Below, piece after piece: positions 14,426 to 46,862 of a stretch of DNA of 64,000 bases. This DNA comes from Synechococcus sp. WH 8020 (GTDB taxonomy: Bacteria; Cyanobacteriota; Cyanobacteriia; PCC-6307; Cyanobiaceae). How positions within the stretch are numbered: the first letter of the stretch is position 1; every line of letters starts with the position of its first letter. Both the position numbers and the translations under genes were made by a program. The stretch is from NCBI RefSeq assembly GCF_001040845.1, contig NZ_CP011941.1, positions 701,744 through 765,743 on the forward strand. Reading direction: 5' to 3'. Below the pieces are notes generated by a model that did not search any database, was not told where the DNA came from, and saw only the letters and a program-made list of their open reading frames with translations.

Positions 14426-15886
14426 TCAGCGGCCTCCCACCGTGATCGAATCAACCTTGATATGGGGTTGCCCCACCGTGACAAAAATGCTGCCGCTCAC
14501 CGATCCGCAGTATCCAGCGGCTAAATCGAGGTCGTTGGCGCACATGGAAATCCTCGGCATGACTTCCTTGGCTTCCCCGATCAAGGTGGCTCCCTTCACC
14601 GGACGCCCCAGTTGTCCATTCTCAATGATGTAGCCCTCTTCCACAGAGAAATTGAATTGACCGGTTGGTCCCACACTTCCACCGCCCATCGATTTGCAAT
14701 ACAGGCCACGATCAACGGATTGGATTAGTTCGTCAGTGCTGTGGGGACCTGCAGCGATGTAGGTGTTACGCATGCGACTTGCAGCAGCAAAACCATGGTT
14801 TTGTCTTCTACCGCTTCCGGTACGCACATGACCGGTCCGTAGTTCACCGGCACGATCACTCAAAAATCCTTTTAAGACGCCTTGCTCGATTAAGACCGTG
14901 CGTTGTGATTCCATCCCCTCATCGTCCATGGATAGGGAACCAAAGGCACCGCTACTCAAACCTTCATCAATCGCGGTGACTGCAGGGTTGGCAATCAGTT
15001 CTCCAACTTGATCTGCAAAGGGGGTCGTTCCCCGTTCAACCTGTGTGGTTTCGAGCAGATGGCCGCAGGCTTCATGGAATATGACCCCTCCAAAACGATT
15101 GGCGAGAACCACTGGCATCTGCCCTCCATCCACGTAATTGGCATGGAGCATGGTTGCTGCACTGGTGCACACTTCGTTGGCCGCTGCATCCACATCCCAG
15201 TCCCGTAGGTCATGAGGGCGATCGCTGGATCCAAACCGGCGAGCGATGTTTGCACGATGCTCGCCATCTGCGGCCAGGACACTCAGGCCGCTGGACTGAT
15301 GCAGACGGATGTCGCGGGCGTAGGTCCCATCACTGGCTGCCACAAGAACCTCTTGCCAATCCCGTGAAAAGCTGCCTCTTCGCACCTCCAGGTGCTCTCC
15401 AAGCTGATCAAGACGAGCTGTTCCTTCCAGCAGTCGCTGCGTGATTTCACTGAGCTCAGGGGACTGAGTGAGCCAGGTGTCTTTGTTGACCCCAAAATCT
15501 CTGAGTGGATGGAGCCCCTGAAAGCCTCGATCATGCTGGAGAGCATTGTGCTCCAATTCGAGCATGGCCAAGGCTTGGTCAAGCGCTTGGGCTAAGCCGG
15601 ATTCACTGAGATCGTTCGTGCTCACGAAACCGTCTCGGTGTCCGAGGAAGACGCGGATTCCTGCGCCCATTCCGAAAGATGGAGACACACTTGTGATGCG
15701 TTCCTGTTCGGCGAGCACACCTAAATGATCCGTGCGTTCTAAGAACACTTCTACAAGATCCGCACCAGCACGGACCCCTGTCTGAAGAAGCGTTTCCAGG
15801 CGATCTTTCCAGGGTGTGTGGCTCGGATCCAGATTGAATGTCTGGTTAAGAGCGGGATGGGTATCGACCAAGCCCCTCATCTGCAT
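14426..15886 (-). CDS. tldD: TldD metalloprotease catalytic subunit
   Basis: 486 residues. The zinc site HEACGH lies at about residues 271-276 within GGVIFHEACGHLLE, and the third ligand Cys is expected in the C-terminal region (the MGGGSVGPTGQFNF and YCGSVSGSIF segments). TldD/TldE process peptides such as microcin B17 and the CcdA antitoxin in E. coli; in cyanobacteria the natural substrate is unknown. Two in-frame ATGs (15886, 15880) are equally possible. It is first of the apparent tldD-tldE-fmt operon. Confidence 0.93.
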   Translation of the reverse strand: MQMRGLVDTHPALNQTFNLDPSHTPWKDRLETLLQTGVRAGADLVEVFLERTDHLGVLAEQERITSVSPSFGMGAGIRVFLGHRDGFVSTNDLSESGLAQALDQALAMLELEHNALQHDRGFQGLHPLRDFGVNKDTWLTQSPELSEITQRLLEGTARLDQLGEHLEVRRGSFSRDWQEVLVAASDGTYARDIRLHQSSGLSVLAADGEHRANIARRFGSSDRPHDLRDWDVDAAANEVCTSAATMLHANYVDGGQMPVVLANRFGGVIFHEACGHLLETTQVERGTTPFADQVGELIANPAVTAIDEGLSSGAFGSLSMDDEGMESQRTVLIEQGVLKGFLSDRAGELRTGHVRTGSGRRQNHGFAAASRMRNTYIAAGPHSTDELIQSVDRGLYCKSMGGGSVGPTGQFNFSVEEGYIIENGQLGRPVKGATLIGEAKEVMPRISMCANDLDLAAGYCGSVSGSIFVTVGQPHIKVDSITVGGR

Positions 15887-15950
15887 CAGCCTTGATTATG
15901 GAGAATCACAGAAGGAAACGCAGACAGAGGGGCTGGTCGATAGGTCCCTC

Positions 15951-17036
15951 TCAACGAACGCCTGGGTGATATTGATCGCTGCGGATCGGTGCCATTAAGA
16001 ACAACGATGCCATTTGAGCTCCGTTGGCCACCCAATGGGGCAGTTTGCGCAGCAATTTGATCGGTGCAGGGGCTTGCGATGCATCCACTGCGCTCAGCGC
16101 TGCGTTGTTGTTCACCAAGCGTTCGAGTCCGTCGAAAAAGCGAGGATTCTTGACATCGAGGACCACTGGAAACACCCGAGCAGTGTTTTCATTGGTCTTG
16201 TCGATCACCAAGCGGTCGTATTCCCGCGCATCCAGCCCCAGAGCTTCGTAAAACTCTTTGCGAGCGACATCTCGCACATACATGGTGGCAAACACCGCAA
16301 GCAGAAAGAAGCGGCACCACAGTCGAGCACGTAGTCCCCTCACAGTGTCTGGTTGCGCTTTCATCAACGCATCAAAGAAATCACCATGGCGATTTTCGTC
16401 CTGACACCAATTTTCGAAGAAGTTGAAGATTGGGAAAATTTTATGATCTGGATTCTGTTCAAGATGGCGGAAAATGGTGATGTAGCGCCAGTAACCAATT
16501 TTTTCAGAAAGATATGTGGCGTAAAAAATAAATTTTGGTTTGAAGAATGTATAGCTTTTATTTGCTGTTAGAAAGCCAAGATCAAGCTGCAGGCCAAAAT
16601 CGCTCATCGACTTGTTGAGGAAGCCGGCATGCCGAGCCTCATCTCGCGCCATATGGGAGAAGCATTCGGCTAGTAGGGGGTTTTTGGTTTTGATCCGACG
16701 ACTGAGCTCTTTGTAAAGCAAAAACCCTGAAAATTCAGACGTGCAACTTTGCTCTAAAAATTCAACGAATACTTTCCGTGTTGCCGGATCGAGCTGATCT
16801 GCAGCTCCATCAAACTCGCCATTGCGTACAAAGTGATGGCGGTTGTAATCCTTTCGAAATTCTTCGCAGATGGCCTCTAGTTCTGCCTCATTCGGACGCA
16901 GATCCATCGCGGCCATTGCCTCGAAATCTGTCGTGTAAAAACGAGGGGTGAGGATCGTGTCCTTCTCCGGGTCTTTCGCCGTTACGTTGGACCCTGGTGC
17001 TGCTGTGGCTTCCGTCACGGCTGTTGGAGGCACCAT
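15951..17036 (-). CDS. acsF: Mg-protoporphyrin IX monomethyl ester oxidative cyclase (AcsF/ChlE)
   Basis: Aerobic di-iron enzyme that forms the fifth ring of chlorophyll. 361 residues. The two metal-binding motifs of the rubrerythrin-like fold are clear: DEARH at 132-136 and DENRH at 213-217, each with an upstream Glu ([10 protein letters not shown] and the FNFFENW helix). Conserved blocks such as [20 protein letters not shown] are intact. It is transcribed alone, upstream of tldD by 64 bp. Only this copy lies in the window; many cyanobacteria also have a low-oxygen paralogue. Confidence 0.95.
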
Positions 17037-17110
17037 CAGTTGCGTCAGTAAGTACCTCTCATCGTAGGTCGCCCTCTGGAAACCCCGCCTCCACTGTTAA
17101 GAGCTCTCAG

Positions 17111-17548
17111 TTAATTCCCACCCAGCCATTTCTGGCCATTCAGGCGCTGCAGCAAACGGGACTGCAGAAGAGCCAGATTGATGCGCTTCTCATCGATCAA
17201 AAACGACTCCAGCAGGCTGGGCTCCGTTCCGGACTCGGCAAGAGCAATGGTTTTACCAGATGTGATCGAATCCGATTCAAAACAAACCCAGAATCGCCGA
17301 TCGCCTGGCAACTCACCCATGACCATCCAGCATTGGCCTCCCACAACAGGACGATCGCCCTGGATTAAATCGATCGAGGCGTTGATCTGATAGTTGCTGC
17401 TAAGCGCTTTGCTGAGGGATGGGATGAGATCGTCCTTAATGAACGCTTGAAAGGGCTTGTCCTCCAGCTTGGGCTTCGGGGCAGGTTTTGCTGCCGGCTT
17501 TGCCGCTGGCTTGGCTGCAGCTTTGGGTGTTTCGGGAGTTTCGCTCAC
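17111..17548 (-). CDS. DUF2996 family protein
   Basis: 145 residues from a GTG start. The first 30 or so residues are an Ala/Lys/Pro-rich low-complexity tail built of AAKPAAKP repeats. The folded part begins KPFQAFIKDDLIPSL and continues through DRPVVGGQCWMVMGELPGDRRFWVCF, the pattern of the cyanobacterial DUF2996 family. No catalytic residues are recognisable. A role near photosystem assembly has been suggested for plant relatives, but this cannot be judged here. Confidence 0.8.
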   Translation of the reverse strand: MSETPETPKAAAKPAAKPAAKPAPKPKLEDKPFQAFIKDDLIPSLSKALSSNYQINASIDLIQGDRPVVGGQCWMVMGELPGDRRFWVCFESDSITSGKTIALAESGTEPSLLESFLIDEKRINLALLQSRLLQRLNGQKWLGGN

Positions 17549-17593
17549 CGGACTTTGATTGCTGGGCGAACTGTAGACAGCCCAGTGCTTTCT

Positions 17594-18100
17594 CTACCAA
17601 TCATCGCCAATCTCTCGATTCCAATCGTCAGGATCAGAGTCTGCTGCTCCTCTTGCAGTAGCAGTAGACGGATTGGTGTCTTGGCTTTGGGTTGGTGTTG
17701 CGTTGGCTTGGTTGCCTCGATGCACCACCCTGAAGGGCACTGAGACGGTTGGGGCTGGATCGCGCACGTCACGTTCAGGCCAGGGTGTGGCTTGAGCTGG
17801 TCTGGCCTCATGTGGTTGCTCACGAGGCAACGGATCTTGAACATGGGGTCCTGTTGCCGGCCGTCGAACCTCTCGACGCAGTACGGGGCTCGAGGTCACC
17901 ATTGCCAATCCACCCACAGCGCTGACGCCCGATCCCAAGATCGTTGCAACAGCGATCCAGGCCCCAATCGGCAAGCTGGGCAATCTCCATGTGAGCACTC
18001 GCAACGATGACGCTTGTCCGAGATTGAGTGAGGCGATCAACAGCATCAATACCACTGGACTCAGACAGGGAATCAGCAGCAAGCGTTGAAGAGCTGTCAT
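17594..18100 (-). CDS. Two-helix membrane protein with disordered tail
   Basis: 168 residues from ATG 18100, which overlaps the ubiX stop as ATGA; an upstream ATG at 18118 is also in frame. Two membrane helices (about residues 3-25 and 42-65) are followed by a Pro/Arg/Gln/Asp-rich cytoplasmic tail that looks disordered. The helix arrangement resembles LapA-like or other small cyanobacterial membrane proteins, but no family is recognised. Coupling to ubiX suggests co-expression. Confidence 0.75.
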   Translation of the reverse strand: MTALQRLLLIPCLSPVVLMLLIASLNLGQASSLRVLTWRLPSLPIGAWIAVATILGSGVSAVGGLAMVTSSPVLRREVRRPATGPHVQDPLPREQPHEARPAQATPWPERDVRDPAPTVSVPFRVVHRGNQANATPTQSQDTNPSTATARGAADSDPDDWNREIGDDW

Positions 18101-18741
18101 GGCTGGCGCCCCTGCCAACGTTTCAGAGGCCCTAAATCCTCACCAAGAGAGTCGAAGAGTCTCACCACCAAGAAATCCACCATCTCGCTGAGATTTTGGG
18201 GCTGGCTGTACCAAGCAGGAATCGGTGGTGCAATTCTTGCTCCCGCTTCAGCCAGAGTTGTGAGGTTGCGGAGATGAATCAGGCTCCATGGCATTTCTCT
18301 TGGTGCCAGCACCAGGGGGCGTCCTTCCTTGAGATGAACATCAGCACAACGTTCGAGCAGATCACTGGCCACTCCTGCCGCAATACGCCCCACGGTTCCC
18401 ATCGAACAAGGCACAATCACCATGCCTCGGGTTGCCACACTTCCACTGGCAATCGTTGCGGCTTGATCTCCCCAGCGATGGCAAATCAATGATCCTGTTT
18501 GAACATTCAGCCGAGATCTCCAAAAGCGTTCCTGAAGCTCAGGATCGACGGGGACCTGGATGGATTGTTCAGCGAGCCAAACCTCATGAGCACCACGACT
18601 CATGATCAGGTGAACGCTGCGTTCCTGCTGAAGCAACAGTTGTAGGGCCCTCTCAGCAAGCGGTTGGGCTGAGGCGCCGCTCACCCCAAGGACATAAGGA
18701 CGATCAGGTTGCTCCAACAGCGACACGTCCTTAATCCTCAC
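18097..18741 (-). CDS. ubiX: Flavin prenyltransferase UbiX (Pad1 family)
   Basis: Makes prenylated FMN, the cofactor of UbiD-type decarboxylases, which in cyanobacteria serve plastoquinone or other quinone synthesis. 214 residues from a GTG start. Visible family motifs are YVLGVSGASAQPLAERAL (FMN phosphate loop), IVPCSMGTVGRIAAGVASDLLERCADV and RPLVLAPREMPWSLIHLRNL. It overlaps the upstream RNase II-like gene by 11 bp and the downstream membrane-protein gene by 4 bp. No ubiD is in the window. Confidence 0.93.
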   Translation of the reverse strand: MRIKDVSLLEQPDRPYVLGVSGASAQPLAERALQLLLQQERSVHLIMSRGAHEVWLAEQSIQVPVDPELQERFWRSRLNVQTGSLICHRWGDQAATIASGSVATRGMVIVPCSMGTVGRIAAGVASDLLERCADVHLKEGRPLVLAPREMPWSLIHLRNLTTLAEAGARIAPPIPAWYSQPQNLSEMVDFLVVRLFDSLGEDLGPLKRWQGRQP

Positions 18742-21112
18742 TCACGGCCACGGGCATCGGGGACTCGTCCTCTGCTTCTTCCTTTGACATCACGATGTCT
18801 AGGTCGATCTGATTGCGCAGGACATCCACCTTGGTTACACGCACTGTGACGGGATCTCCAAGTTTGTAAACGCGACGATTACGACGACCCACAAGCCGAT
18901 TTTGGCGCGAACGGTATTCGTACCAATCGTCGTTCAAGGAGCTGACATGCACCAAACCCTCCACCATGGAGGGGGCAATTTCGACGAAGAACCCATAACT
19001 TTGAACGCCGCTGATCACACCTTGTTGCTCGTGGTCGAGCATCGGTTCGGCGCTTCGTGCTTGCGCCATCGCAATCACATCTCTAGAAAGCTCAGCTTGT
19101 TGGCGACGCCGAGAATTGAGACGTTGAAGTTTGCGTTCTGGAAGGATTTCCTTCAATCGTTGTTGAAGAGATCCACTGAAGAGTGGCCAGGTCATCGTTG
19201 AAGCGGCACCTTTGCTGCCCAAGTTGACCGTTTCTTTTTGGCGAACGCTTGGACGATCTTTGCCGTCGTTGAGCAGCTGACACAACACCTGTTGGTTCAA
19301 TAAATCGGCGTAATGCAGGGTGGGACAGCACCAAGGCGCCAATAACGGAGTCGCCCCATCCTGAGTAGGAGGAGTGATCGCATCAATGTCTGCTGCTTTG
19401 TCGAGCTCTTCATCACCTTGTTCTGTCTCAGTGACCGATCCATTGTTTTCATTGGTAAGAGCGATTTGCTTGGCTTTCGACTGGATGAAGCGGAATTGAG
19501 GATCTGGAAGGGTCTGTCGCAGCTGCAGGTTGAGCACCCGTCTCGATGGACTTGTAATCAAGGCTTGCGCGAGTTCGGACGCCGAGGTGGTCCCTTCTTC
19601 ATCCAGGGAGATCGGCAGCTCTAAGGCAATGGCTGCTTTGGCGACGTCATTCAGCGATCCACTTTCGGGATCATTGGATTGAAGCACCAGGGCTGGAAGA
19701 TTGAAATCCAGGCAATGCTGAGTCCAAGTGGCATTCGCTGCTCGAAGGAAAACAGCCAGGATTGAGAAGGGATCCTCTTCTCTCAAGGGTTCAATCCACT
19801 GACGATTGCCACCATCAGGTTCGGCGGCTCGGAGGTCTCCCAGCGTTTCCAAATCAGGGGTTGGAAGATCTAATTCGATTAGGCCCTGTCTTAACTCTGC
19901 GGCGTGCAGAGCTTTGGCGCAAAAGATCAGTGTCTCGAGTTGTCCGATGTGATCTTTGATTGGTTTCAGTGCTGCTGGAATCGCGCGAGAACGGGGCTTG
20001 CGCCCTGCCAAGGCCGTTAAGGCTTCCGAGGTCACTTCTGCGACAGGCCGAATCTGTGTCAAACAGAATTCCCAGTCTTGAACGCTGCCTTCAGCGTCAA
20101 AATCAATGCGAACACTCACTGCCGCTTGTGATTCTCCAACGTTGAACGCTGCCGCTTTGGAGAGGTTGGGACTCAGTAGTGGAATCCACTTATTGCCCAA
20201 ACAAAGAGCTTCGCTTTGTTCGCACAGCCATTGATCAAGACTGTTTCCGGGGTTCACGCGTTCAGCGACAGCAGGAGCATGAATCCACAGCTGGGTCCCA
20301 CCTTCATGGGGGATGACATGGGCTGCTGGTAGCTGGGGAGCACCATCAATCACCCAATTGTTCAAGAGTAAACAGGGCTGATCGGTGAGGTCTTTGCGTC
20401 GTTTATCGACTGGAGCCTTAATCGTTGTTCTTGGGACAGTTGCCCTGTTATGTAGGTGGGCTTTCGTGAGTAAGAGATCTCGATCAGCATCGACACCACC
20501 GTTGAGTGGCAGCGAACGGGCCACATGACCACGGGCTGGGTGTTGAGCGATCGGGTATCGATCGAGCTGCACTTCAACCACTGATGTGGCTGGTCCCTCG
20601 ACTCGATAGTTGCTATCTCCTTCGGGTAACTCGATGGAGGCGAGAACACGATCATCGAGGGGAACGGCGAGAAGTCGCTCATCCTGTTGTTCCACTTGAG
20701 CCAGAAGACTTGTGGTGGCTCGCTGCAAAATGCATTGCACCCCCCCTTCTGGAGATCGACGGCGGCCTGCATCACGGATGATGCGCACCAACACGCGATC
20801 ACCATTCCAAGCGTGATTCAGCTGATGGTCACGGATGTAGACGTCTTCACCGCCGTCATCACGAATGGCAAAACAGAACCCTTTGCTGCTGCAGCGCAAA
20901 CGGGCTTCAATCAAACCAATGTCGTCTTCTCTGGAGACCGAACTCTCCTCTTCAAGGCTCAGAACACCAAGTCGATCAAGCGCTTTCAGCGCAATGCCGA
21001 GAGATTGTTTATCCGCTCGATTGGTTAATCGGAGAATCTTTTCGAGCTTGCTGACCTCAACGGAACCGTCATGGGGGACCTGATCGAGAAGGTCGGCGAC
21101 CGTGAATTTCAT
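18731..21112 (-). CDS. RNase II/RNase R-like protein with degenerate active site
   Basis: 793 residues from ATG 21112 (MKFTVADLL). Order: N-terminal winged-helix/cold-shock regions (1-200), an RNB-like domain (about 235-620) and an intact C-terminal S1 domain (GVISGVQSYGFFVEI, then EGLVHVSSL). The catalytic motif of the family, D-x5-D-x-D-D, reads V-D-KRRK-D-L-T-D here: the essential third Asp is Thr243 and the first is Val235. The RNA/catalytic motif SPIRRY reads CPTLHY (596-601), losing both Arg. The protein is therefore probably not an exoribonuclease but an RNA-binding relative. A catalytically intact paralogue lies at 44808-46862. It is coupled to ubiX. Confidence 0.85.
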   Translation of the reverse strand: MKFTVADLLDQVPHDGSVEVSKLEKILRLTNRADKQSLGIALKALDRLGVLSLEEESSVSREDDIGLIEARLRCSSKGFCFAIRDDGGEDVYIRDHQLNHAWNGDRVLVRIIRDAGRRRSPEGGVQCILQRATTSLLAQVEQQDERLLAVPLDDRVLASIELPEGDSNYRVEGPATSVVEVQLDRYPIAQHPARGHVARSLPLNGGVDADRDLLLTKAHLHNRATVPRTTIKAPVDKRRKDLTDQPCLLLNNWVIDGAPQLPAAHVIPHEGGTQLWIHAPAVAERVNPGNSLDQWLCEQSEALCLGNKWIPLLSPNLSKAAAFNVGESQAAVSVRIDFDAEGSVQDWEFCLTQIRPVAEVTSEALTALAGRKPRSRAIPAALKPIKDHIGQLETLIFCAKALHAAELRQGLIELDLPTPDLETLGDLRAAEPDGGNRQWIEPLREEDPFSILAVFLRAANATWTQHCLDFNLPALVLQSNDPESGSLNDVAKAAIALELPISLDEEGTTSASELAQALITSPSRRVLNLQLRQTLPDPQFRFIQSKAKQIALTNENNGSVTETEQGDEELDKAADIDAITPPTQDGATPLLAPWCCPTLHYADLLNQQVLCQLLNDGKDRPSVRQKETVNLGSKGAASTMTWPLFSGSLQQRLKEILPERKLQRLNSRRRQQAELSRDVIAMAQARSAEPMLDHEQQGVISGVQSYGFFVEIAPSMVEGLVHVSSLNDDWYEYRSRQNRLVGRRNRRVYKLGDPVTVRVTKVDVLRNQIDLDIVMSKEEAEDESPMPVAVSED

Positions 21113-21238
21113 CGGAGCATGCAAGAAACCGGCCTTCAGGACCGGGAGTTGAATCAAAACCGCAGCACTCGAAGACTTGTAGTGCAAACAGTGAATGACA
21201 GTCCAACTCTAATCGCTCGACTGTGCGCGATTCGTCCC

Positions 21239-21544
21239 TTAGTCCTCGGCCTGGGTGGATCCCAGTCCGGCTTGGAGCATGGGCATGAGCAGGCGGCCCC
21301 CGATCACTAGAAACCCAGTTGAGGCAATTAGTTGCAACCAGTCAGCTGGAATCACAGCCGATAAGGATCCTCCCGCGACAGCGCCAATCAAGCTCGCGAG
21401 TACTAAAGCGCTGGATGATCCGAGAAACACCGCTAAGGGGCGATTGGATGTGCCGCTAATAGCAACTGTTGCTAATTGGGTTTTGTCACCGAGCTCTGCC
21501 AGGAACACGGTGACAAAAGTGGAAATGAGAAGGGTGAAGTCCAT
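21239..21544 (-). CDS. UPF0016 (Gdt1/TMEM165-like) half-size cation transporter, subunit 1
   Basis: 101 residues with three membrane helices and one family signature ELGDKTQLAT (Glu17, Asp20, Lys21). Full-length family members contain two such signatures in inverted repeats and exchange Mn2+ or Ca2+ for protons; the Synechocystis protein Mnx exports Mn2+ into the thylakoid lumen. Here each half is a separate gene, and the partner lies 7 bp upstream, so a heterodimer is expected. Metal specificity is inferred. Confidence 0.88.
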   Translation of the reverse strand: MDFTLLISTFVTVFLAELGDKTQLATVAISGTSNRPLAVFLGSSSALVLASLIGAVAGGSLSAVIPADWLQLIASTGFLVIGGRLLMPMLQAGLGSTQAED

Positions 21545-21551
21545 AACAATT

Positions 21552-21881
21552 TCAGAGTGATTGGGTCTCTAACAGTGACTTCAAGGCCTGAGTTCCCAGC
21601 CACAAACCCAGTCCCACCATCAGCAAACCTGCCATTTGTTCCAGCCGTTCTGGGGGAAGGATGGTGGAGAGCCAACGTCCCACAAGAACTCCTACCAGGC
21701 TTGAACAAATCAATGCCAGCGCGGCCCCGATAAACACCAACCATGGTTCGCCGGATTGGGCCGAAAGAAGGAGAGTGGCTAATTGGGTTTTATCACCCAA
21801 TTCAGCCAAAAAAACGGTGGTGAAGGTGCTCAGCAGAATGGCGTTGAACCCAAGCTTGCTGTCGCTACCTGCTTCAGTCAT
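21552..21881 (-). CDS. UPF0016 (Gdt1/TMEM165-like) half-size cation transporter, subunit 2
   Basis: 109 residues, again three membrane helices and one ELGDKTQLAT signature (Glu27). The rest differs clearly from the neighbour, so this is an old pair and not a recent duplication. Its start overlaps the stop of the cysteine-cluster gene at 21874 by 8 bp and it lies 7 bp before the other half, giving a three-gene unit. Together the two halves probably form one Mn2+/H+ exchanger needed for photosystem II manganese supply. Confidence 0.88.
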   Translation of the reverse strand: MTEAGSDSKLGFNAILLSTFTTVFLAELGDKTQLATLLLSAQSGEPWLVFIGAALALICSSLVGVLVGRWLSTILPPERLEQMAGLLMVGLGLWLGTQALKSLLETQSL

Positions 21882-22248
21882 CGGAATCCTGAGGTGAGCG
21901 AATCAACCGCTCGAACTTACGCAGTTCCAGGCTTCTTCCGCCATGAACCGAGCGAATTTGCTGTCGACAGCAATCAATGGCGAAGGCATTGACCTCCTCG
22001 GCTGGTACTGCAAATAAATCGGATAAACCAGTCACCCGGCAAAAGTCAGGTCGGTTCTCATAAATTCTGCAGCGCCGACCACCCTTGTCGAAATGTCGAC
22101 ACCAACCGTCTTCTCCCACCATTTCTAGGTAGATCGTTTGCTGCTCGTCCGATAGCGCTTCAAGCGCTTCCGGTCGTTCCGCCGGAGCGAGCCTGCAACA
22201 AGCACCGCATTGACTCAGGCAGGACCAGTGAAGGGGAGGGCGGCTCAT
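21874..22248 (-). CDS. YkgJ family cysteine-cluster protein
   Basis: 124 residues. A CLSQCGACC motif near residue 10-18 and later Cys at CRHF, CRIYENRPDFCR and CC form the eight-Cys pattern of the YkgJ/UPF0153 family (Fe-S or zinc cluster binding). The family is widespread and functionally undefined. Its 8-bp overlap with the UPF0016 pair suggests a link with metal handling. Confidence 0.88.
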   Translation of the reverse strand: MSRPPLHWSCLSQCGACCRLAPAERPEALEALSDEQQTIYLEMVGEDGWCRHFDKGGRRCRIYENRPDFCRVTGLSDLFAVPAEEVNAFAIDCCRQQIRSVHGGRSLELRKFERLIRSPQDSDD

Positions 22249-22342
22249 GGTTCAATTTCAATGGTGCTGTGACAAGGCATCACAGTGATACCTCTCTTCA
22301 AAGGCAATGCGGGGGAACGCCCCGTACCCTTTTGGAGGCATC

Positions 22343-22474
22343 ATGCTGATCAACTGCTTTCCTCCCATGGGATTTGATATCCACCTGATTGCAAATTTTG
22401 GGGCCCTCGCTCTGATCACGCTTGCTGGCCCAGCTGTGATCTTCATCCTCTTCTACAGGCGCGGAGCTCTCTGA
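22343..22474 (+). CDS. psb30: Photosystem II protein Psb30 (Ycf12)
   Basis: Single-helix subunit at the periphery of the photosystem II core. The core sequence ([19 protein letters not shown] followed by YRRGAL) matches Psb30/Ycf12. ATG 22343 has GGAGG 4 bp upstream and gives 43 residues; ATG 22367 gives 35 residues, the more usual Psb30 length, but has no ribosome-binding site. The 3' end overlaps the ClC gene by 22 bp on the opposite strand. A CTGTGA/TCACAG hairpin lies in the upstream region shared with the divergent YkgJ gene. Confidence 0.85.
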
Positions 22475-23817
22475 AGCTTTGCGAGAGCGTGATACACCGG
22501 TGTTCTGGAGACCAGCCGTCCGGTGTAAGCGGCAATGATGGCCGTGAGACAAGCTCCTGCAAATAACTGTTGATCGCCCACCAGTCGCCAGGAAAAAATG
22601 AGCGAGACCAGCGGCAGTTGGGTGGCACCAGCTAGTCCTGCCGCTAGTCCAAGACCTACACCCACTTGGGTGCTGAATCCAATCACCGCACAGGTGCTGT
22701 AACCGAGTACGGCACCGAAGGTGAGTGATGGGTCGATCAATCCGCCTGGCACTCCTGGTGCTAGGGCGAGCATGGGGCCAATCACCCGGACCACCGTGAT
22801 CCAAATGCTCACGAGTCCTGAGCGGACATTGCTGTGATCTGACCCCAATTCTGGTAAGCCTCGCTCGAGGAGTTGCTTCACGAGTGCTTCACCGTCCGCA
22901 GTGCTAGTTCCCCAGCTCAACAAGGCGAGCAGACTGAGTGCTGCGCCAAGGAATAGGCCGGTGCGCAGGGGACGTTGTCGCACCATTGGAGCTAAACGCG
23001 ATGTGGACCAAACCAGACCACGGTTAAAGAATCCACCGACAAGTCCAGCGGCGATTCCGATCGGCACGGCCAGCAAGAGTTGTTCACTTTCGGGTGCAAA
23101 CACATTGATAAGACCTAAGCCAAAGATCGGCTCCCCTCCAAGGTTCGAAAAACCAGCCGCGGCGATGCACACCAGCAAAGCTGGCCAGATCGTGACGATT
23201 GAATATTCAGCGGTGAGCTCCTCAAGCATGAAGACAACACCAAGTAGGGGGGTGTTGAAGCCGCCGGCTAGGCCAGCACCTCCGCCGATGGCAACCATCT
23301 GCCGTTCAGTCAGAGCTGGCATCCAATTGGGCCAACGTTTCTGACAGGCGCGTGCCACAGCAGAGCCAAATTGCACCACCGGGCCTTCCCGTCCCAGAGG
23401 AAACATGGCTGCTGTTGCCAGCGACCACAGAATTCCTCTGTGCACTGTGCTGCCTGCTTCCATCGCACTGGGCATCAACGAAGGATCTCCCAGGGCGTTC
23501 ATCGTGGATGGAATTCCTGATCCAGCACCTGCACGCCACGGTCCCCGCTGAAGAATTAACAGGATTGGCATTACCACCACAGGAGTGAACACAATCAGCA
23601 GACCGATCGAGGTCCACGGGTTTTCGCCGGTTGTTGGCAGGAACTGGAAGAGCCACTCCTGAATGCGATCAACAAGATTCAGTGGGAGGCACGCCAGGCC
23701 GATCAAGACGCCAACAACCAGCAAGCCAATGAAGTGGCGCCCAAGTCGACTGATCTCGTTGAAAACCGCCGCTGTGCCCAGGAACCGTGAGCTGGTGGAT
23801 TTGAGTTCAGAAGTCAT
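22453..23817 (-). CDS. ClC family chloride channel/antiporter
   Basis: 454 residues from ATG 23817, coupled to the recJ stop as ATGA. About 11 membrane segments. Selectivity-filter signatures are present: GSGIP near 110, [10 protein letters not shown] near 150 (the GxEGP motif, here GREGP) and the later [11 protein letters not shown]. The gating-glutamate position within GREGP is retained. In cyanobacteria ClC proteins have been linked to acid and ion stress. Exchanger versus channel cannot be decided. Confidence 0.92.
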
Positions 23818-25724
23818 GGAAGGAGGCCGAGGCCAATGCAAGCGTCTTGAATGAGGTCAGCAACGTAAGGGTGGCTTGCCCTTTTGTCTTCACTTTCGAA
23901 AACTCCTTTGCTGTTCACCGATCCAGACAGTCGCTCTCCTGTGGGGTTCTGAATCTCTACGCTAGAAGCGGCGGGGCTTGTGCAGCGATAAACCCCTGGG
24001 CCGCGGAGCAGATCTAAGCAGGCATGATGTTCTCGAAGCGCCTGAATGTCGAGCTGCAGTTTTGCTTCTCCCTGCCAGCGGTTGAGGCTGATCCGAAACG
24101 CAACATCAACCGTGGCTGGCAGGGGCTCGGTTTGTTGCCAGCGCCAGGCGATGGCTTCCCGCTCACAGTCGTCCTGAGCCAGGGTGAGTTTCAGGTGCCC
24201 GCCGCGGAGCAATCGTTGTGATGTCACCTGGCATCCTCTCGACCAAAACAGAGGGGCTGGATGGCCAATGCCAAAGGGTTCAAGAGACAGCAACGCTGAC
24301 CAAAGGTCGTGATTGATCGCTGAGAGCGATAACAGTGCTTCTGGTTCCACCAGAAGTCCTTCTCCACGGGTTTGGATCCAAGACAGAGCCAAGACATTGA
24401 GCGCCTCATGCAGGCGATGCACATGTTCGGCCTTCACGGTGAAGCCCCCTGCGGCGGGGTGGCCGCCATGGCGTTCCAGGAGGTTGCTGCAGTGGTCTAG
24501 TGCCTTGTCGACAGCAAACCCTTCGGGTGCCCGTACCGAAGCCCGCATGAGGCCATCCCCATCAGCAGCCAGCAAGGCGGTTGGGCGTTGAAATCGGTCC
24601 ATCAGCCGTGCAGCAACGATGCCAATCACACCGTGATGCCAGTGGCCTTGCGCGAGAAGCAGAAAGGGTGGTAGTGGATCACGGTCAGACTCCAATAAGG
24701 CCAATGCTTCGGCCTCAATGGCATCGCAGAGCTCCCGCCGCTGTCGGTTGAGACTGTCGCATTGACGACCCAGCTCAATGGCGCTGTCTTGGTCCTCTGC
24801 CGTGAGCAAATCCACCACCAGCTGGGGATCGCCGATGCGTCCCACCGCGTTGATTCTGGGGGCCAGTTGAAAACCGATGTCATCGGCGCGCAGTGGTCGA
24901 TCGCCGAGTCCTGCAAGTTGCTGCAGGGCGCGTACACCCGGACACTTGCTTCGATGGAGATGAAGCAACCCTTCTCTCAGGAGTGTCCTATTCGCGCCTG
25001 TCAGAGGTGCCATGTCGGCCACCGTTCCAATGCAAAACAAATCACGAGCACTGGCGATAGCAGCGGGTTGGCGCATGCGTTCTGCGAGTTCGCGCGCAAG
25101 CACATACGCGAGCCCAACGCCTGCTAATCCCCGATAGGGAGAGTGGTCTGGCGTTGTGGCCGGATGAATCAACGCGAGAGCTTTTGGGCGTGTCTTTGGG
25201 AGCGTGTGGTGATCGGTGAGCACCACCTCCATCTCCAACTCTTCAGCTCTATTCAGGGCCTCGTGAGCAGCCACTCCGTTATCGACAGTGACAATGAGGC
25301 GGACTCCACCGTCGTGGAGTTCATTCACCATCGAACAGTTCAAGCCGTAGCCATCAGCCATACGGCTTGGAATCGCTGCTTGCGGTTCCGCTCCCAAGGT
25401 GCGCAGGGTGCGCAGCAACAACGCTGTGCTTGTCATGCCATCAGCGTCGTAGTCGCCACAAATCGCAACGCGCTCTGCCTTTAAACAGGCCTGATGTAAG
25501 CGATGGACCGCCTTCTTCATGTCAGGGAAGTGACCATCAGGCTTGGGTAAGGGTGAATCGTTTAGCAGTGCATTCACCTGAGCTGGTTCTCTTAGACCTC
25601 GCCGGGACAACAGGGCAAGGAGGGGCAGAGGAAGGGGCACTGCCTGCAGAGCCGTGAGATCAATCCCCCTGGGTAGTTGCCATTGCTGAATCGAGGCGGC
25701 AGACGGCAACGGGCAGGTGCTCAA
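23814..25724 (-). CDS. recJ: Single-stranded-DNA exonuclease RecJ
   Basis: 5'-3' exonuclease for recombination and mismatch repair. 636 residues from a TTG start. DHH motifs are intact: GDYDADGMTSTALLL near 89, VTVDNGV, TDHHTLP, and the DHHA1 signature GGHPAAGGFTV. The OB-like C-terminal part follows. It ends coupled to the ClC gene and runs divergently from the CbbY-like phosphatase, with which it shares a short promoter region. Confidence 0.94.
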   Translation of the reverse strand: MSTCPLPSAASIQQWQLPRGIDLTALQAVPLPLPLLALLSRRGLREPAQVNALLNDSPLPKPDGHFPDMKKAVHRLHQACLKAERVAICGDYDADGMTSTALLLRTLRTLGAEPQAAIPSRMADGYGLNCSMVNELHDGGVRLIVTVDNGVAAHEALNRAEELEMEVVLTDHHTLPKTRPKALALIHPATTPDHSPYRGLAGVGLAYVLARELAERMRQPAAIASARDLFCIGTVADMAPLTGANRTLLREGLLHLHRSKCPGVRALQQLAGLGDRPLRADDIGFQLAPRINAVGRIGDPQLVVDLLTAEDQDSAIELGRQCDSLNRQRRELCDAIEAEALALLESDRDPLPPFLLLAQGHWHHGVIGIVAARLMDRFQRPTALLAADGDGLMRASVRAPEGFAVDKALDHCSNLLERHGGHPAAGGFTVKAEHVHRLHEALNVLALSWIQTRGEGLLVEPEALLSLSAINHDLWSALLSLEPFGIGHPAPLFWSRGCQVTSQRLLRGGHLKLTLAQDDCEREAIAWRWQQTEPLPATVDVAFRISLNRWQGEAKLQLDIQALREHHACLDLLRGPGVYRCTSPAASSVEIQNPTGERLSGSVNSKGVFESEDKRASHPYVADLIQDACIGLGLLP

Positions 25725-42991: not shown

Positions 42992-44814
42992 CAGCGCAAA
43001 CTTGCCACATCCCAGTATTGGTTTGGGGTGGTGGGACCGGAGGCGTTGCTGCTGCAGTTCAGGCTGCTCGGTCCGGGGCAGACACGCTTCTTCTCACTCC
43101 AGGTCGCTGGCTTGGGGGAATGGTCAGTACGGCGGGTGTGTGTTGCCCTGATGGCAATGAACTTGCCCCCTGGCAGACCGGTTTGTGGGGTGCCTTCCTG
43201 AGGGCTTTGTATCAAGCCGAGCCTGAAGGTCTCGATCAGAACTGGGTGAGCTGCTTTGGTTATCGGCCTACGACGGCTGAGGCGATTCTTCAAAACTGGG
43301 TGCAGGCACTCCCGAATCTTCAGTGGTGGGCGGATTGTCAGTTGCTGGATGTGGAACGCTCTGGATCTTCGGTCCAAGCAGTGCTGATTCAACGCTCCAG
43401 TGATGTTCACCGCATTGTCTGCGATCTGGTGATCGACGGAAGTGATCGTGGAGATTTATTGCCTTTGGCTGAGGCACCCTTTCGTTTTGGGTGGGAGGCT
43501 GAGGAGGTGTGGGGGGAGCCGAGCGCTCCCAGCGAGCAGCGCCTTAAGACAGAAGATTTTTTTCGAGAGCAGCCTGTGCAGTCCCCCACCTGGGTGGTGA
43601 TGGGTCAGCTGCAGAGCGATCGTTTGGAGCCCGATGCTTCCTCCAACATTCTTCTCCCTGATCAGCCGGTGTTACCAGCGCCGTTTGAGCGGGCTTGCGA
43701 GGCCTTCGGCCTGGAACGAACCATCACGTATGGCCGCCTGCCTGGCGGACTGGTGATGCTCAATTGGCCGTTGCACGGCAATGACTGGCACCGGGGGTTG
43801 GAGCCTGCATTTCGTGGAGATTCTCAAAGGGAAGCAGAGCTGTATCGGGAGATGCAAGCCCACAGTCTTCAATTTGTTGAGGCCCTTTCAGAAGCAAGCG
43901 ACGGTTGGTTGGCCTTTGGCCATGGGTTCCCTCAGAAGTCTGGAAGCCTGGCTCCCTGGTTGGCGGCCATGCCCTACTGGCGGGAGGGGCGCCGGATGAT
44001 TGGACTCCGGACAGTGATTGAACAGGAGCTGCTGCCTCAGACGACCGGTCAATCCATCGCTGCACTTCCTTTGAATGACGCCGGTGAGCTGCAATCAATT
44101 GCTGTTGGTAATTACGCCAACGACCATCACTATCCAGGACCTGATTGGCCATTAACCCCAAAAAGCTGTCGCTGGGGTGGTCGTTGGTCAGGGACTCCCT
44201 TCTGCATCCCGTATCAAGCGCTGGTGAGTGCTGATGTCGACAACCTGTTAGTTGCTGACAAGGGTTTTAGTACGAGCCACATGGCCAATGGGGCCACAAG
44301 GCTCCAACCACTGATTTTTAATGTGGGACAGGCTGCTGGAGCTGCTGCGGCTCTGTCGATTCGGCTCCGACATCCCCTCGCATCTCTTCCAGTTCGGCTT
44401 GTTCAAGAGCTCTTAATCGAGGAGCCCACGGCTCCTTCCGGACTTGTTCCGCTTTGGGACACTCCTTGGCATCATCCCCATTGGCAACAAAGGCAGCGCG
44501 CTTGTCTGAACAACCCTGAGCTACTGGGCCCGAATGGTTGTTGGCTAGGTCCAGAGGAGCAGGTTTCGATCTCTCCTCCTCCCCAGCCTCAGCAGGGCGT
44601 TTGGTCAGGAACACTGGTGCCTGATCACCACGGTGGATACGAACTGGAACTGGTGGGTGGTCGACGTTGGCCCTTGATCACCCTGGAGCCTGAGCTGAGC
44701 GATTGGCTTGCGGATCAAGAACGTCCTAAAGCCGTTGAGTTACGCGCCGTCGCCAACCCCTGGGGGCCTTGGTTACGGGGTATCAGCCTGCATGACTCCG
44801 GGGACAGTCAATGA
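42988..44814 (+). CDS. FAD-dependent oxidoreductase
   Basis: 608 residues. An N-terminal Rossmann FAD fold (VLVWGGGTGGVAAAVQAARSG, GxGxxG variant GGGTGG at about 14-19) with TPGRWLGGMVSTAG matches the FAD_oxidored family; a C-terminal FAD-binding part contains LLVADKGFSTSHMANGATR and NVGQAAGAAAALSIR. The substrate is unknown. It overlaps the preceding gene by 4 bp, and its end overlaps the convergent RNase II gene by 7 bp. Confidence 0.9.
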   Translation: MTAQTCHIPVLVWGGGTGGVAAAVQAARSGADTLLLTPGRWLGGMVSTAGVCCPDGNELAPWQTGLWGAFLRALYQAEPEGLDQNWVSCFGYRPTTAEAILQNWVQALPNLQWWADCQLLDVERSGSSVQAVLIQRSSDVHRIVCDLVIDGSDRGDLLPLAEAPFRFGWEAEEVWGEPSAPSEQRLKTEDFFREQPVQSPTWVVMGQLQSDRLEPDASSNILLPDQPVLPAPFERACEAFGLERTITYGRLPGGLVMLNWPLHGNDWHRGLEPAFRGDSQREAELYREMQAHSLQFVEALSEASDGWLAFGHGFPQKSGSLAPWLAAMPYWREGRRMIGLRTVIEQELLPQTTGQSIAALPLNDAGELQSIAVGNYANDHHYPGPDWPLTPKSCRWGGRWSGTPFCIPYQALVSADVDNLLVADKGFSTSHMANGATRLQPLIFNVGQAAGAAAALSIRLRHPLASLPVRLVQELLIEEPTAPSGLVPLWDTPWHHPHWQQRQRACLNNPELLGPNGCWLGPEEQVSISPPPQPQQGVWSGTLVPDHHGGYELELVGGRRWPLITLEPELSDWLADQERPKAVELRAVANPWGPWLRGISLHDSGDSQ

Positions 44815-46862
44815 GCCGTGGCCACAAGTCTGAGTTGATCTCGTGCCGAGTCCACATGGTGCACGTTGATCAGCATGCCTTCGCCCGGTTCTGAATCTCT
44901 TGGACAATCCGCAGCCACATCCATGGCTAGGTCGTCGATTCGCACCAATCCAAGCTGATCTTGAGGTCTCAACCAGCGCAAGAACTGAGCAGCCCATTGC
45001 TCCTTACGGTGGTGTTCAAACCAAACCTGCTGCCAGTGGCGTTGGTCTTCCCGGGAGATCCCAATGCCTTCACGCACCGCTGCATCAAAGTCGGTGATCA
45101 GCAGTTGCATGGCATCGCGATTCAGAGCTTCCTCGCCATTGAGTTGAGCTTGCAATTGCCGCTGCACAACGAGATCGCCATAGCGACGGATGGGCGATGT
45201 GGCCTGGGCATAGGCGGCCAGTCCCAAACTGAAGTGGGCTGCGGGTTGGGTTCCCATCAGTCCACGACTGAGACAGCGCTTGATGGCAGCAAATCGTACG
45301 GCTCCATCGGGGAGAGCCTCCAATTCGGAGCTGGTGGGGAGGTCAGCGGTCAGCTGGCTGCGAAACGGCAAGGCGAGGTCATGAACTTCCGCAAATCTGG
45401 CGACCGCCGCACCCGCCAAGATCATCGCTTCGGCCACCATCTGTCTTGATCTACCAGGTTCACTGACCTCCAGAGAAGGCTGACCATCTCGACACCGAAT
45501 TCGCCCTTCTGGAAGATCCATGAGCAAGGCTCCATCGCGGACTCGGCACTCACGCCTGAGGCTGAGGAGCGCATCCAATTCCGCTAGGTCGGTGTCTTCT
45601 GGGGGTGCCAATTCGATCAACTCATCGGCATCGTCGTAGCTGAGTCGGTAGGTGGGTTGGACCCAGCTCCGTTGGATTCCGTGATCTCCGAGTTCTCCTT
45701 CGGATGTGAGTTCCGCCCAGATGCTCCAGGCAGCCGTTCGCGTTCGTGCTCGCAAACTGAAAGGCCCCGTCGACAGGCATTCTGGAAACATTGGCAGATT
45801 GCCTTTCGCTAAATAAAGGCTGCTCCCGCGACGCCTCGCCTCGAGATCAAGAGCTGAGTCTTGATCGATCAGTCGTCCGGGGTCGGCAATATGGATCCAG
45901 ATTCTTTGGGTACCATCGTCGCGGCGTTCAAGCGCGATCCCGTCATCAATATCCCGGGTCTCTTGATCGTCGATCGTGAAGCAGCGCTGATCACAAAGAT
46001 CGATGCGTTCGGAGTCACCGGGGCGTTCACTCGCGTTGAGCCCCACCAAGCGTTCGGCCTCTTCAAGTAGAGCCGGGCTAAATCCCGATGACCAGGTTGT
46101 TCCGGCCATCGACGCCAGTTGATGAGGATCCCAAAGTCCGAGATCCACCAAGAGAAGTCGAAGCTCAGCCCGGTCTTGATCGAGACGTAGACCCACCAGG
46201 CTCTGCTGAACGGACCGATCCAATTGGGCAAATTCGATGGAACCTGAAACCAGGTCCTTGAGTTGCTCGAACCTTTCGCATAGGGCTTGGGGGAGGCTTG
46301 CGAGATCCAGCTGTTTTCGGGAGCTCAACAGCTGTTTCCAGAGTTGTTCTCTTTGCTGTTCCAGGGCTTTGAGTCGTTGCTGTCGGCGCAACGGTTTCAG
46401 TTCATCTGCTGAGCGAGCCTTGATTTGATCCTGCTTGTAACGGAACCAAAGCTGGGGACCCATTAAGGCCAGCCAACACAGCGCCAACTGGCTTGGACTG
46501 GTTCCTCCGCAGACCAGATCACACAAAAAATCAATCTCAACTGTCTCGTCTGACTCCAGAAGCAAGAGCCATGCCGAGCCCCAACTGCGACGATCGAGAC
46601 ACGCAGTGTTGACTTGTTCGGGTTTCAGATTCCAAGGAGAAGCCCCCAGACCATCCGGAAGTTCAGCTCCGGAGGGCAGGGGGCAAATAAGATCCAATTG
46701 CCGTTGAGGTAGAACAACAGATTTGCGATCGAATCCGAGTTTCAAGCGCGCTTTGCTGCCTTGAAGCGATTCGATGACAGCCAGTTGATTACCTTTCGAC
46801 TCGTGAACGCCGACAAGATCTCCTGGTTGGAGAGAGGACGAAGCCAGTGGATCAGCCTTCAG
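44808..46862 (-). CDS. RNase II family exoribonuclease with intact active site
   Basis: 3'-5' exoribonuclease. The catalytic cluster D-x5-D-x-D-D is intact at about Asp298, Asp304, Asp306, Asp307 ([11 protein letters not shown]), and SPIRRYGDL is present. A coiled-coil region (about 140-200) precedes the RNB domain; the C-terminal part lacks a clear S1. The first ATG/GTG/TTG in frame is TTG 46745 (645 residues), but 39 sensible codons precede it ([20 protein letters not shown], a small SH3/OB-like barrel). The upstream frame offers only CTG codons, the first at 46862, overlapping the end of rpsR. I annotate that CTG (684 residues). Confidence 0.85.

Follow-up and report, generated by a model that had tools for sequence, protein, structure and literature searches.

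A gene on the minus strand (18731–21112) of a 64,000-nucleotide stretch of DNA from Synechococcus sp. WH 8020 (NZ_CP011941.1, positions 701,744–765,743; hereafter the window) is almost certainly an orthologue of zam, which encodes an RNB-family pseudo-nuclease of cyanobacteria, and its product, judging by the residues at its active site, very probably lacks the two-metal nuclease activity of RNB proteins. Since all four aspartate ligands and the arginine of the SPIRRY motif are gone, no RNA cutting by the RNB mechanism is to be expected. Zam has been described as a cyanobacterial clade of RNase II/R proteins with an extremely degenerate active site, accompanied by an intact paralogue, Rnb (Thomas et al., 2022, PMC9145284; this and the other publications are cited here from the parts available to us). 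The loss of the catalytic site in the window protein is thus real but not new, because the protein family is already in print, and the window Zam is one of the most degenerate forms of that known family.

The open reading frame (ORF) runs uninterrupted from an ATG at 21112 to the stop at 18731 and encodes 793 amino acids. Its start is backed by Met1, Lys2 and Phe3, each at least 90% conserved in a 39-sequence alignment that includes the window protein. Pfam matches above cut-off were obtained for OB_RNB (residues 71–126), RNB (239–615) and S1 (693–772), together with a sub-threshold match for CSD2 (24.8 vs 26.2 bits), and the genome (2.66 Mb, one contig) contains only two RNB matches, both inside the window. 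The label Zam rests on the sequence traits that Thomas et al. (2022) give for this protein, all of which are present here as far as the available text names them. In common with the Zams of PCC 6803 (sll1910) and PCC 7002, compared by description, there are cold-shock/OB, RNB and S1 domains, a degenerate site, two cysteines in CSD1 and the presence of one Zam and one intact Rnb per genome (PMC9145284).

Loss of the catalytic residues

An earlier, sequence-only reading had proposed that catalytic residues are lost in this protein, reading the metal-binding motif D-x5-D-x-D-D as V-D-KRRK-D-L-T-D (residues 235–244) with Thr243 in place of E. coli RNase II Asp209. The loss itself stands, but the register of the motif was wrong. 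In an alignment with E. coli RNase II and RNase R, it is residues 249–262 (LLNNWVIDGAPQLP), and not 235–244, that line up with the catalytic stretch TID(x5)D-x-DD. The columns of RNase II Asp201, Asp207, Asp209 and Asp210 are occupied by Asn251, Pro259, Leu261 and Pro262, with no aspartate in any of the four, and the loop reads N-NWVIDGAPQ-L-P. The stretch from Val235 to Asp244 runs across the beginning of the RNB domain and aligns upstream of the metal motif, its D-L-T-D being the counterpart of the canonical D-L-R-D (in DLRDLP) at the start of that domain. In the predicted model, a strand (248–250), a loop (251–262) and a second strand (263–269) succeed one another as expected for VTID...DDAVY. 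The spacing to a downstream tryptophan points the same way: the distance from the second aspartate of the DD pair to the Trp of LWV is 15 residues in E. coli RNase R, while in the window Zam Pro262 lies 14 and Thr243 33 residues before Trp276. Because alignment, model strands and Trp spacing agree, Thr243 does not correspond to Asp209, whose column falls on Leu261, and with the register corrected the catalytic loss is therefore more complete than had been supposed. A control profile built from 12 motif-intact RNB proteins aligned the window Zam only from residue 269 on and did not cover the loop; it hence bears out the anchoring beyond the loop, not the loop itself. A phmmer alignment to RNase R (8cdu) that places the metal stretch differently has gaps and little strength in that region and was set aside.

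The Tyr253, Tyr313 and Arg500 columns are also substituted, the last by Leu599 within CPTLHY, which the alignment agrees is the SPIRRY counterpart, as had been read from the sequence. We take these RNase II residues, whose letters were confirmed in the alignment, to have the catalytic roles usually given to them in the E. coli enzyme. A literature search for the RNase II point mutants D207N and D209N found none; the title of PDB entry 2ix1 is 'RNase II D209N mutant'. Glu390 was considered as a further marker and is Ala in the window Zam, but it is Glu in only 4/15 non-Zam RNB proteins and was dropped as uninformative.

Distribution and graded decay of the site

The window Zam, used as the query for orthologues in 60 genomes, was matched in 57; the other three are 58%, 73% and 97% complete. 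With 43 Zam loci added from a phylum-wide draw, Zam is present in 100/103 genomes, where the 43 added genomes, of the same class, already had an RNB match and cannot show Zam absence. In the phylum-wide draw, RNB genes were found in 56 of the 116 genomes. The other 60 gave no RNB match, and the 20 of these that are listed all lie outside the class. Outside the class, five RNB proteins were recovered that are not Zam: Cys74 is missing from each of them, and four have all four aspartates, whereas the fifth reads DDDQ. Some cyanobacteria possess, beside Zam and Rnb, an extra RNB protein (L105, L106, L113) with four aspartates and no Cys74.

The 100 Zams and 79 organism-named loci make up a combined set of 179 ORFs, of which 116 constitute the window's family, defined as family f1 plus the named loci clustering with it in the tree. 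This family is presumably Cyanobiaceae, since its named loci come mostly from Synechococcus, Cyanobium or Prochlorococcus. Six named loci duplicate others; they were kept in the counts out of 116 and 179 and in those for ubiX, and removed to give 110 distinct sequences. Another locus (L118) was left out of the tree, column and ubiX counts by a CSSKG filter; it reads CSTKGFC, with both cysteines present. A FastTree phylogeny of 194 RNB proteins, with E. coli RNase II as the root, unites all 179 Zam ORFs in a single clade free of other sequences (support 0.705), and the 116 that belong to the window's family form a clade of their own inside it (0.934). A record titled 'MAG: Bifidobacterium breve' (L171) carries a Zam that shares 50% identity with the window Zam, and its title is probably wrong.

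None of the 179 Zam ORFs has all four aspartates in the aligned columns, so the intact motif that had been suggested as a check in close relatives is absent there as well. Among the Cyanobiaceae-type ORFs, 115/116 have no aspartate at these columns and the remaining one has a single aspartate (109/110 distinct sequences without any), while the 63 Zams from outside this family have none in 46 cases, one in 7, two in 7 and three in 3 (L041 and L055 keep three). In 15 non-Zam RNB proteins, four aspartates are found in 10 and three in 5, with four acidic residues in 14/15. The Arg500 column holds Arg in 37/63 of the Zams outside Cyanobiaceae and Leu in 97/110 of the distinct Cyanobiaceae sequences, and in a family of large genomes (f28, presumably Nostocaceae) all 16 Zams have none of the four aspartates, with Glu in the Asp209 column. 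As read from these sequences, decay of the site is graded across Zams and nearly complete in the window's lineage, and it is no recent accident. Compared with the 63 Zams of other families, those of the window's family have further lost Tyr253 and Arg500, and acidic residues have almost vanished from their metal columns; many carry an acidic stretch inserted ahead of the SPIRRY counterpart, and they have extra conserved cysteines (127, 304 and 595/596).

One Zam (L047, genome G044), the top RNB scorer among the 60 genomes searched, contains a complete D-x5-D-x-D-D that is shifted three residues downstream, and it has retained Tyr253, Tyr313 and SPLRRY. If the shifted aspartates can still serve, it is an exception to the statement that the canonical active site is found in no Zam (PMC9145284). 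A plain pattern search for D-x5-D-x-D-D matches 6/179 Zam ORFs, but only L047 at the aligned site; the other five were rejected, four lying in C-terminal tails and one upstream of the site. L047 and the two Zams with three aspartates could be taken to mean that Zam retains nuclease activity by means of another set of residues or a shifted motif, as could the RNA degradation reported in a review for Alr1240, the RNase II of Anabaena. This is very improbable in view of the window's family, in which 115 ORFs, that of the window among them, lack aspartate at all four columns, of the leucine that prevails in its Arg500 column, of the window loop and of the 16 Zams of f28. Migration of the motif within the window protein, which had also been envisaged, finds no echo in the aligned loop, where there is one aspartate and no replacement cluster.

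Constraint and predicted structure

In five pairs of close relatives, the ratio of non-synonymous to synonymous substitution rates (dN/dS) is 0.08–0.14 for the whole of zam, 0–0.03 for S1, 0–0.08 for CSD1 and 0.11–0.17 for RNB, which indicates that the gene is under purifying selection. Mean column conservation in 57 Zams is 0.84 for CSD1, 0.76 for S1 and 0.47 for RNB, in agreement with the pattern described for Zam (PMC9145284) and with the view that the S1 domain is well kept; conservation of cold-shock domains has likewise been described for fungal pseudo-nucleases (PMC8097288). An AlphaFold2 model built with 39 sequences has a mean predicted local distance difference test score (pLDDT) of 85.7 and a predicted template modelling score (pTM) of 0.84, with pLDDT below 50 for the acidic insert just before the SPIRRY counterpart. 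That Zam is a recent degenerate copy on its way to being lost would account for the missing catalytic residues, but it is a negligible prospect for a protein found in 100/103 genomes with low dN/dS and an intact predicted fold. The earlier view of a maintained pseudo-nuclease, rather than simple decay, is therefore upheld, the substitutions being common to relatives.

The best structure matches of the model are RNase R (8cdu, 5xgu and 7dcy, Z 33–35), followed by RNase II, Dis3L2, Rrp44 and yeast Ssd1. The predicted RNase fold is kept, although similarity of fold does not establish function. RNase R (E. coli rnr; 5xgu, 8cdu) is the best match in both sequence and structure, alike in fold and domain order, but the window Zam differs from it in having lost the catalytic aspartates and the SPIRRY arginine, and it scores far below the cut-off of the NCBIfam RNase R model, its best match there (196.9 vs 597.85 bits). 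Zam might occupy the binding place of RNase R, for instance on 30S subunits, and so shield RNA from 3'-5' decay. That the top matches include structures of RNase R bound to a 30S degradation intermediate (8cdu, 8cdv) and that the N-terminal and S1 parts are retained would fit, but the two RNase II/R products of Synechocystis were found in lighter gradient fractions, with no ribosome association reported in the text available, and the idea is improbable. Ssd1 ('a pseudonuclease', 7am1; Z 30.0, root-mean-square deviation 4.2 over 593 residues) is likewise a pseudo-nuclease of the RNase II family and works as an RNA-binding regulator (PMC8934651). Its cold-shock domains are conserved and it arose from fungal Dis3L2 (PMC8097288), which makes it a parallel case and not an orthologue of Zam; redox cysteines are not mentioned for it in the abstracts of these two papers. 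Pseudo-nucleases of the Ssd1 type are characterised by RNA binding to a patch on the outer surface, the internal path for RNA being blocked.

Cysteines of Zam

The CSD1 pair C-x5-C is present in the window Zam (Cys74 and Cys80). Among the 100 Zams that were found without use of the cysteine motif, Cys74 is kept in 99 and Cys80 in 98; the 79 named loci were excluded from this count, since seeding with RCSSKGFC and the CSSKG filter make them circular. One Zam (L059, genome G051) has lost both redox cysteines and most of the RNB signature, and another (L045, genome G040) has lost Cys80 alone and keeps Cys74.

Other cysteines mark the window's family. Cys127, in CSD1, is found in 110/110 distinct Cyanobiaceae Zams and in 0/63 of the others; within the former, Cys304 (Tyr253 column) is present in 99/110, and Cys595 and Cys596 (the Thr-Ser columns of TSPIRRY) in 85/110 each. 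Cys304 occurs with at least one of Cys595/Cys596 in 96/110. The dead catalytic pocket may conceivably have been converted to a second thiol site (Cys304 with Cys595/Cys596), but on these alignments it is a long shot: 14/110 lack Cys304 or both Cys595 and Cys596, L103 has Ser in place of both Cys595 and Cys596, and L104 lacks all three of these cysteines.

Possible role

In PCC 7002, the two CSD1 cysteines are redox-active, with a redox-dependent gel shift, and Cys-to-Ser mutants phenocopy deletion of zam; Zam has been linked to phycocyanin synthesis, which is slower in mutants, and to the ratio of photosystem I to photosystem II, and a model with RNase E as its partner was proposed (PMC9145284). 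According to a review, Alr1240 forms a 1:1 complex with the catalytic region of RNase E and enhances its cleavage, and Thomas et al. identified the Anabaena RNase E partner as Zam (PMC9145284). In the scenario that we favour, Zam would descend from an RNase R-type exoribonuclease whose fold it has kept and would most likely act as a regulator without catalysis, with a CSD1 redox switch gating the binding of RNA or RNase E, while the intact paralogue rnb would carry out 3'-5' degradation. Taken whole (RNase R descent, no RNB cutting, a non-catalytic regulator and degradation by rnb), this account is somewhat better than even; its more specific part, a redox-gated regulator acting on RNA or RNase E, is at best an evenly balanced proposition. 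RNA binding by the window Zam is plausible. Regulation of the intact paralogue, which the sequence-only reading had suggested, has no support in this analysis or in the literature seen.

Zam could instead be a non-catalytic scaffold whose OB folds hold a protein complex (a degradosome or one for photosynthesis assembly), RNA being irrelevant. OB folds can bind proteins and purified Zam showed no RNA binding (PMC9145284), and the complex of Alr1240 with RNase E would also suit a scaffold. However, loop L12 of CSD1 is said to retain RNA-contacting residues (PMC9145284), the window protein reading R-C-S-S-K-G-F-C-F, and the S1 domain is well conserved; a pure scaffold is rather unlikely.

Several observations weigh against the favoured account of Zam as a maintained, non-catalytic regulator. 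Purified PCC 7002 Zam, for which no nuclease activity was reported either, showed no RNA binding, with the caveat of aggregation (PMC9145284). Alr1240 is reported in the review to degrade unstructured RNA, which conflicts with a dead enzyme if Alr1240 is Zam; as the f28 Zams have none of the four aspartates, such an activity would be unexpected if Alr1240 resembles them. A genome 97% complete, in 1150 contigs (G038), gave no Zam match in the 60-genome search, and support for the Zam clade is modest. Finally, Zam is kept in three Prochlorococcus-named loci (L124, L131 and L168). Prochlorococcus has no phycobilisomes, and the pigment phenotype is therefore not the entire role of Zam.

Genomic context and the intact paralogue

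Features of the window are listed in Table 1. The coupling of zam to ubiX is borne out: ubiX lies directly 3' of zam on the same strand, its longest frame overlapping the zam stop by 11 bases. The same adjacency is found in 109/111 assessable Cyanobiaceae-type loci (5/116 not assessable) and in 33/60 assessable loci outside the window's family (3/63 not assessable), and in some genomes zam is followed by acsF. The gene order on the one strand between 15951 and 21881 is GDT1 half, GDT1 half, zam, ubiX, a gene without family match, DUF2996 and acsF, the two GDT1-type half genes being upstream of zam. No relevant publication on zam and ubiX together was found in a literature search, and the words ubiX and operon are absent from the text of PMC9145284. 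Rfam gave nothing at gathering score in 15000–24000.

The paralogue, a cyanobacterial Rnb (sll1290 type), shares the RNB domain with Zam but has HTH_RNase_II and wH_RNase_II N-terminal domains and no OB_RNB or S1 Pfam match to E = 1. It was rightly called intact in that it retains the metal motif and SPIRRY in the alignment, but its frame as given begins with CTG at 46862, with no ATG, GTG or TTG until a TTG at 46745. The translation upstream of 46745 looks like a real N-terminus, and a non-standard start codon is possible.

Table 1. Coordinates of zam, its domains and residues, and associated genes in the window
Feature	Position	Strand	Evidence
zam, RNB-family pseudo-nuclease, 793 aa	18731..21112	-	ORF, Pfam, orthologues, literature
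CSD1/OB domain, residues 67-130, best conserved part of Zam	20723..20914	-	Pfam, column conservation
Cys74, counterpart of redox cysteine C73 (PCC 7002)	20891..20893	-	alignment and published
Cys80, counterpart of redox cysteine C79 (PCC 7002)	20873..20875	-	alignment and published
Cys127, Cyanobiaceae-type Zams only	20732..20734	-	alignment
Degenerate RNB domain, residues 239-615	19268..20398	-	Pfam, structure match
V-DKRRK-D-L-T-D of the sequence-only reading, residues 235-244, not the metal site	20381..20410	-	alignment, model
Metal-site loop, residues 251-262 (N251, P259, L261, P262)	20327..20362	-	alignment, model
Cys304, column of E. coli RNase II Tyr253	20201..20203	-	alignment
Acidic insert, residues 546-586, low confidence, probably disordered	19355..19477	-	model, alignment
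CPTLHY, residues 596-601, SPIRRY counterpart; Arg500 column = Leu599	19310..19327	-	alignment
S1 domain, residues 693-772	18797..19036	-	Pfam
ubiX, flavin prenyltransferase family	18097..18741	-	family match
rnb, RNB paralogue with intact motif, start codon uncertain	44808..46862	-	ORF, alignment

Significance

The finding mostly confirms published work in another lineage, to which it adds the graded decay of the site, the displaced full motif in genome G044, the widespread adjacency of zam and ubiX, and extra cysteines conserved in the family. If Alr1240 is Zam, the RNA degradation reported for it fits poorly with the statement that no Zam has a canonical site. The adjacency to ubiX and acsF puts zam beside a flavin-prenyltransferase gene of the quinone pathway and genes of chlorophyll synthesis. 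Should a second thiol site exist, a further redox switch or metal site could connect the one-time nuclease core with the CSD1 switch already known. Graded decay allows Zams with three aspartates or a displaced motif to be compared with fully dead ones, and so to learn what a nuclease-independent role needs.

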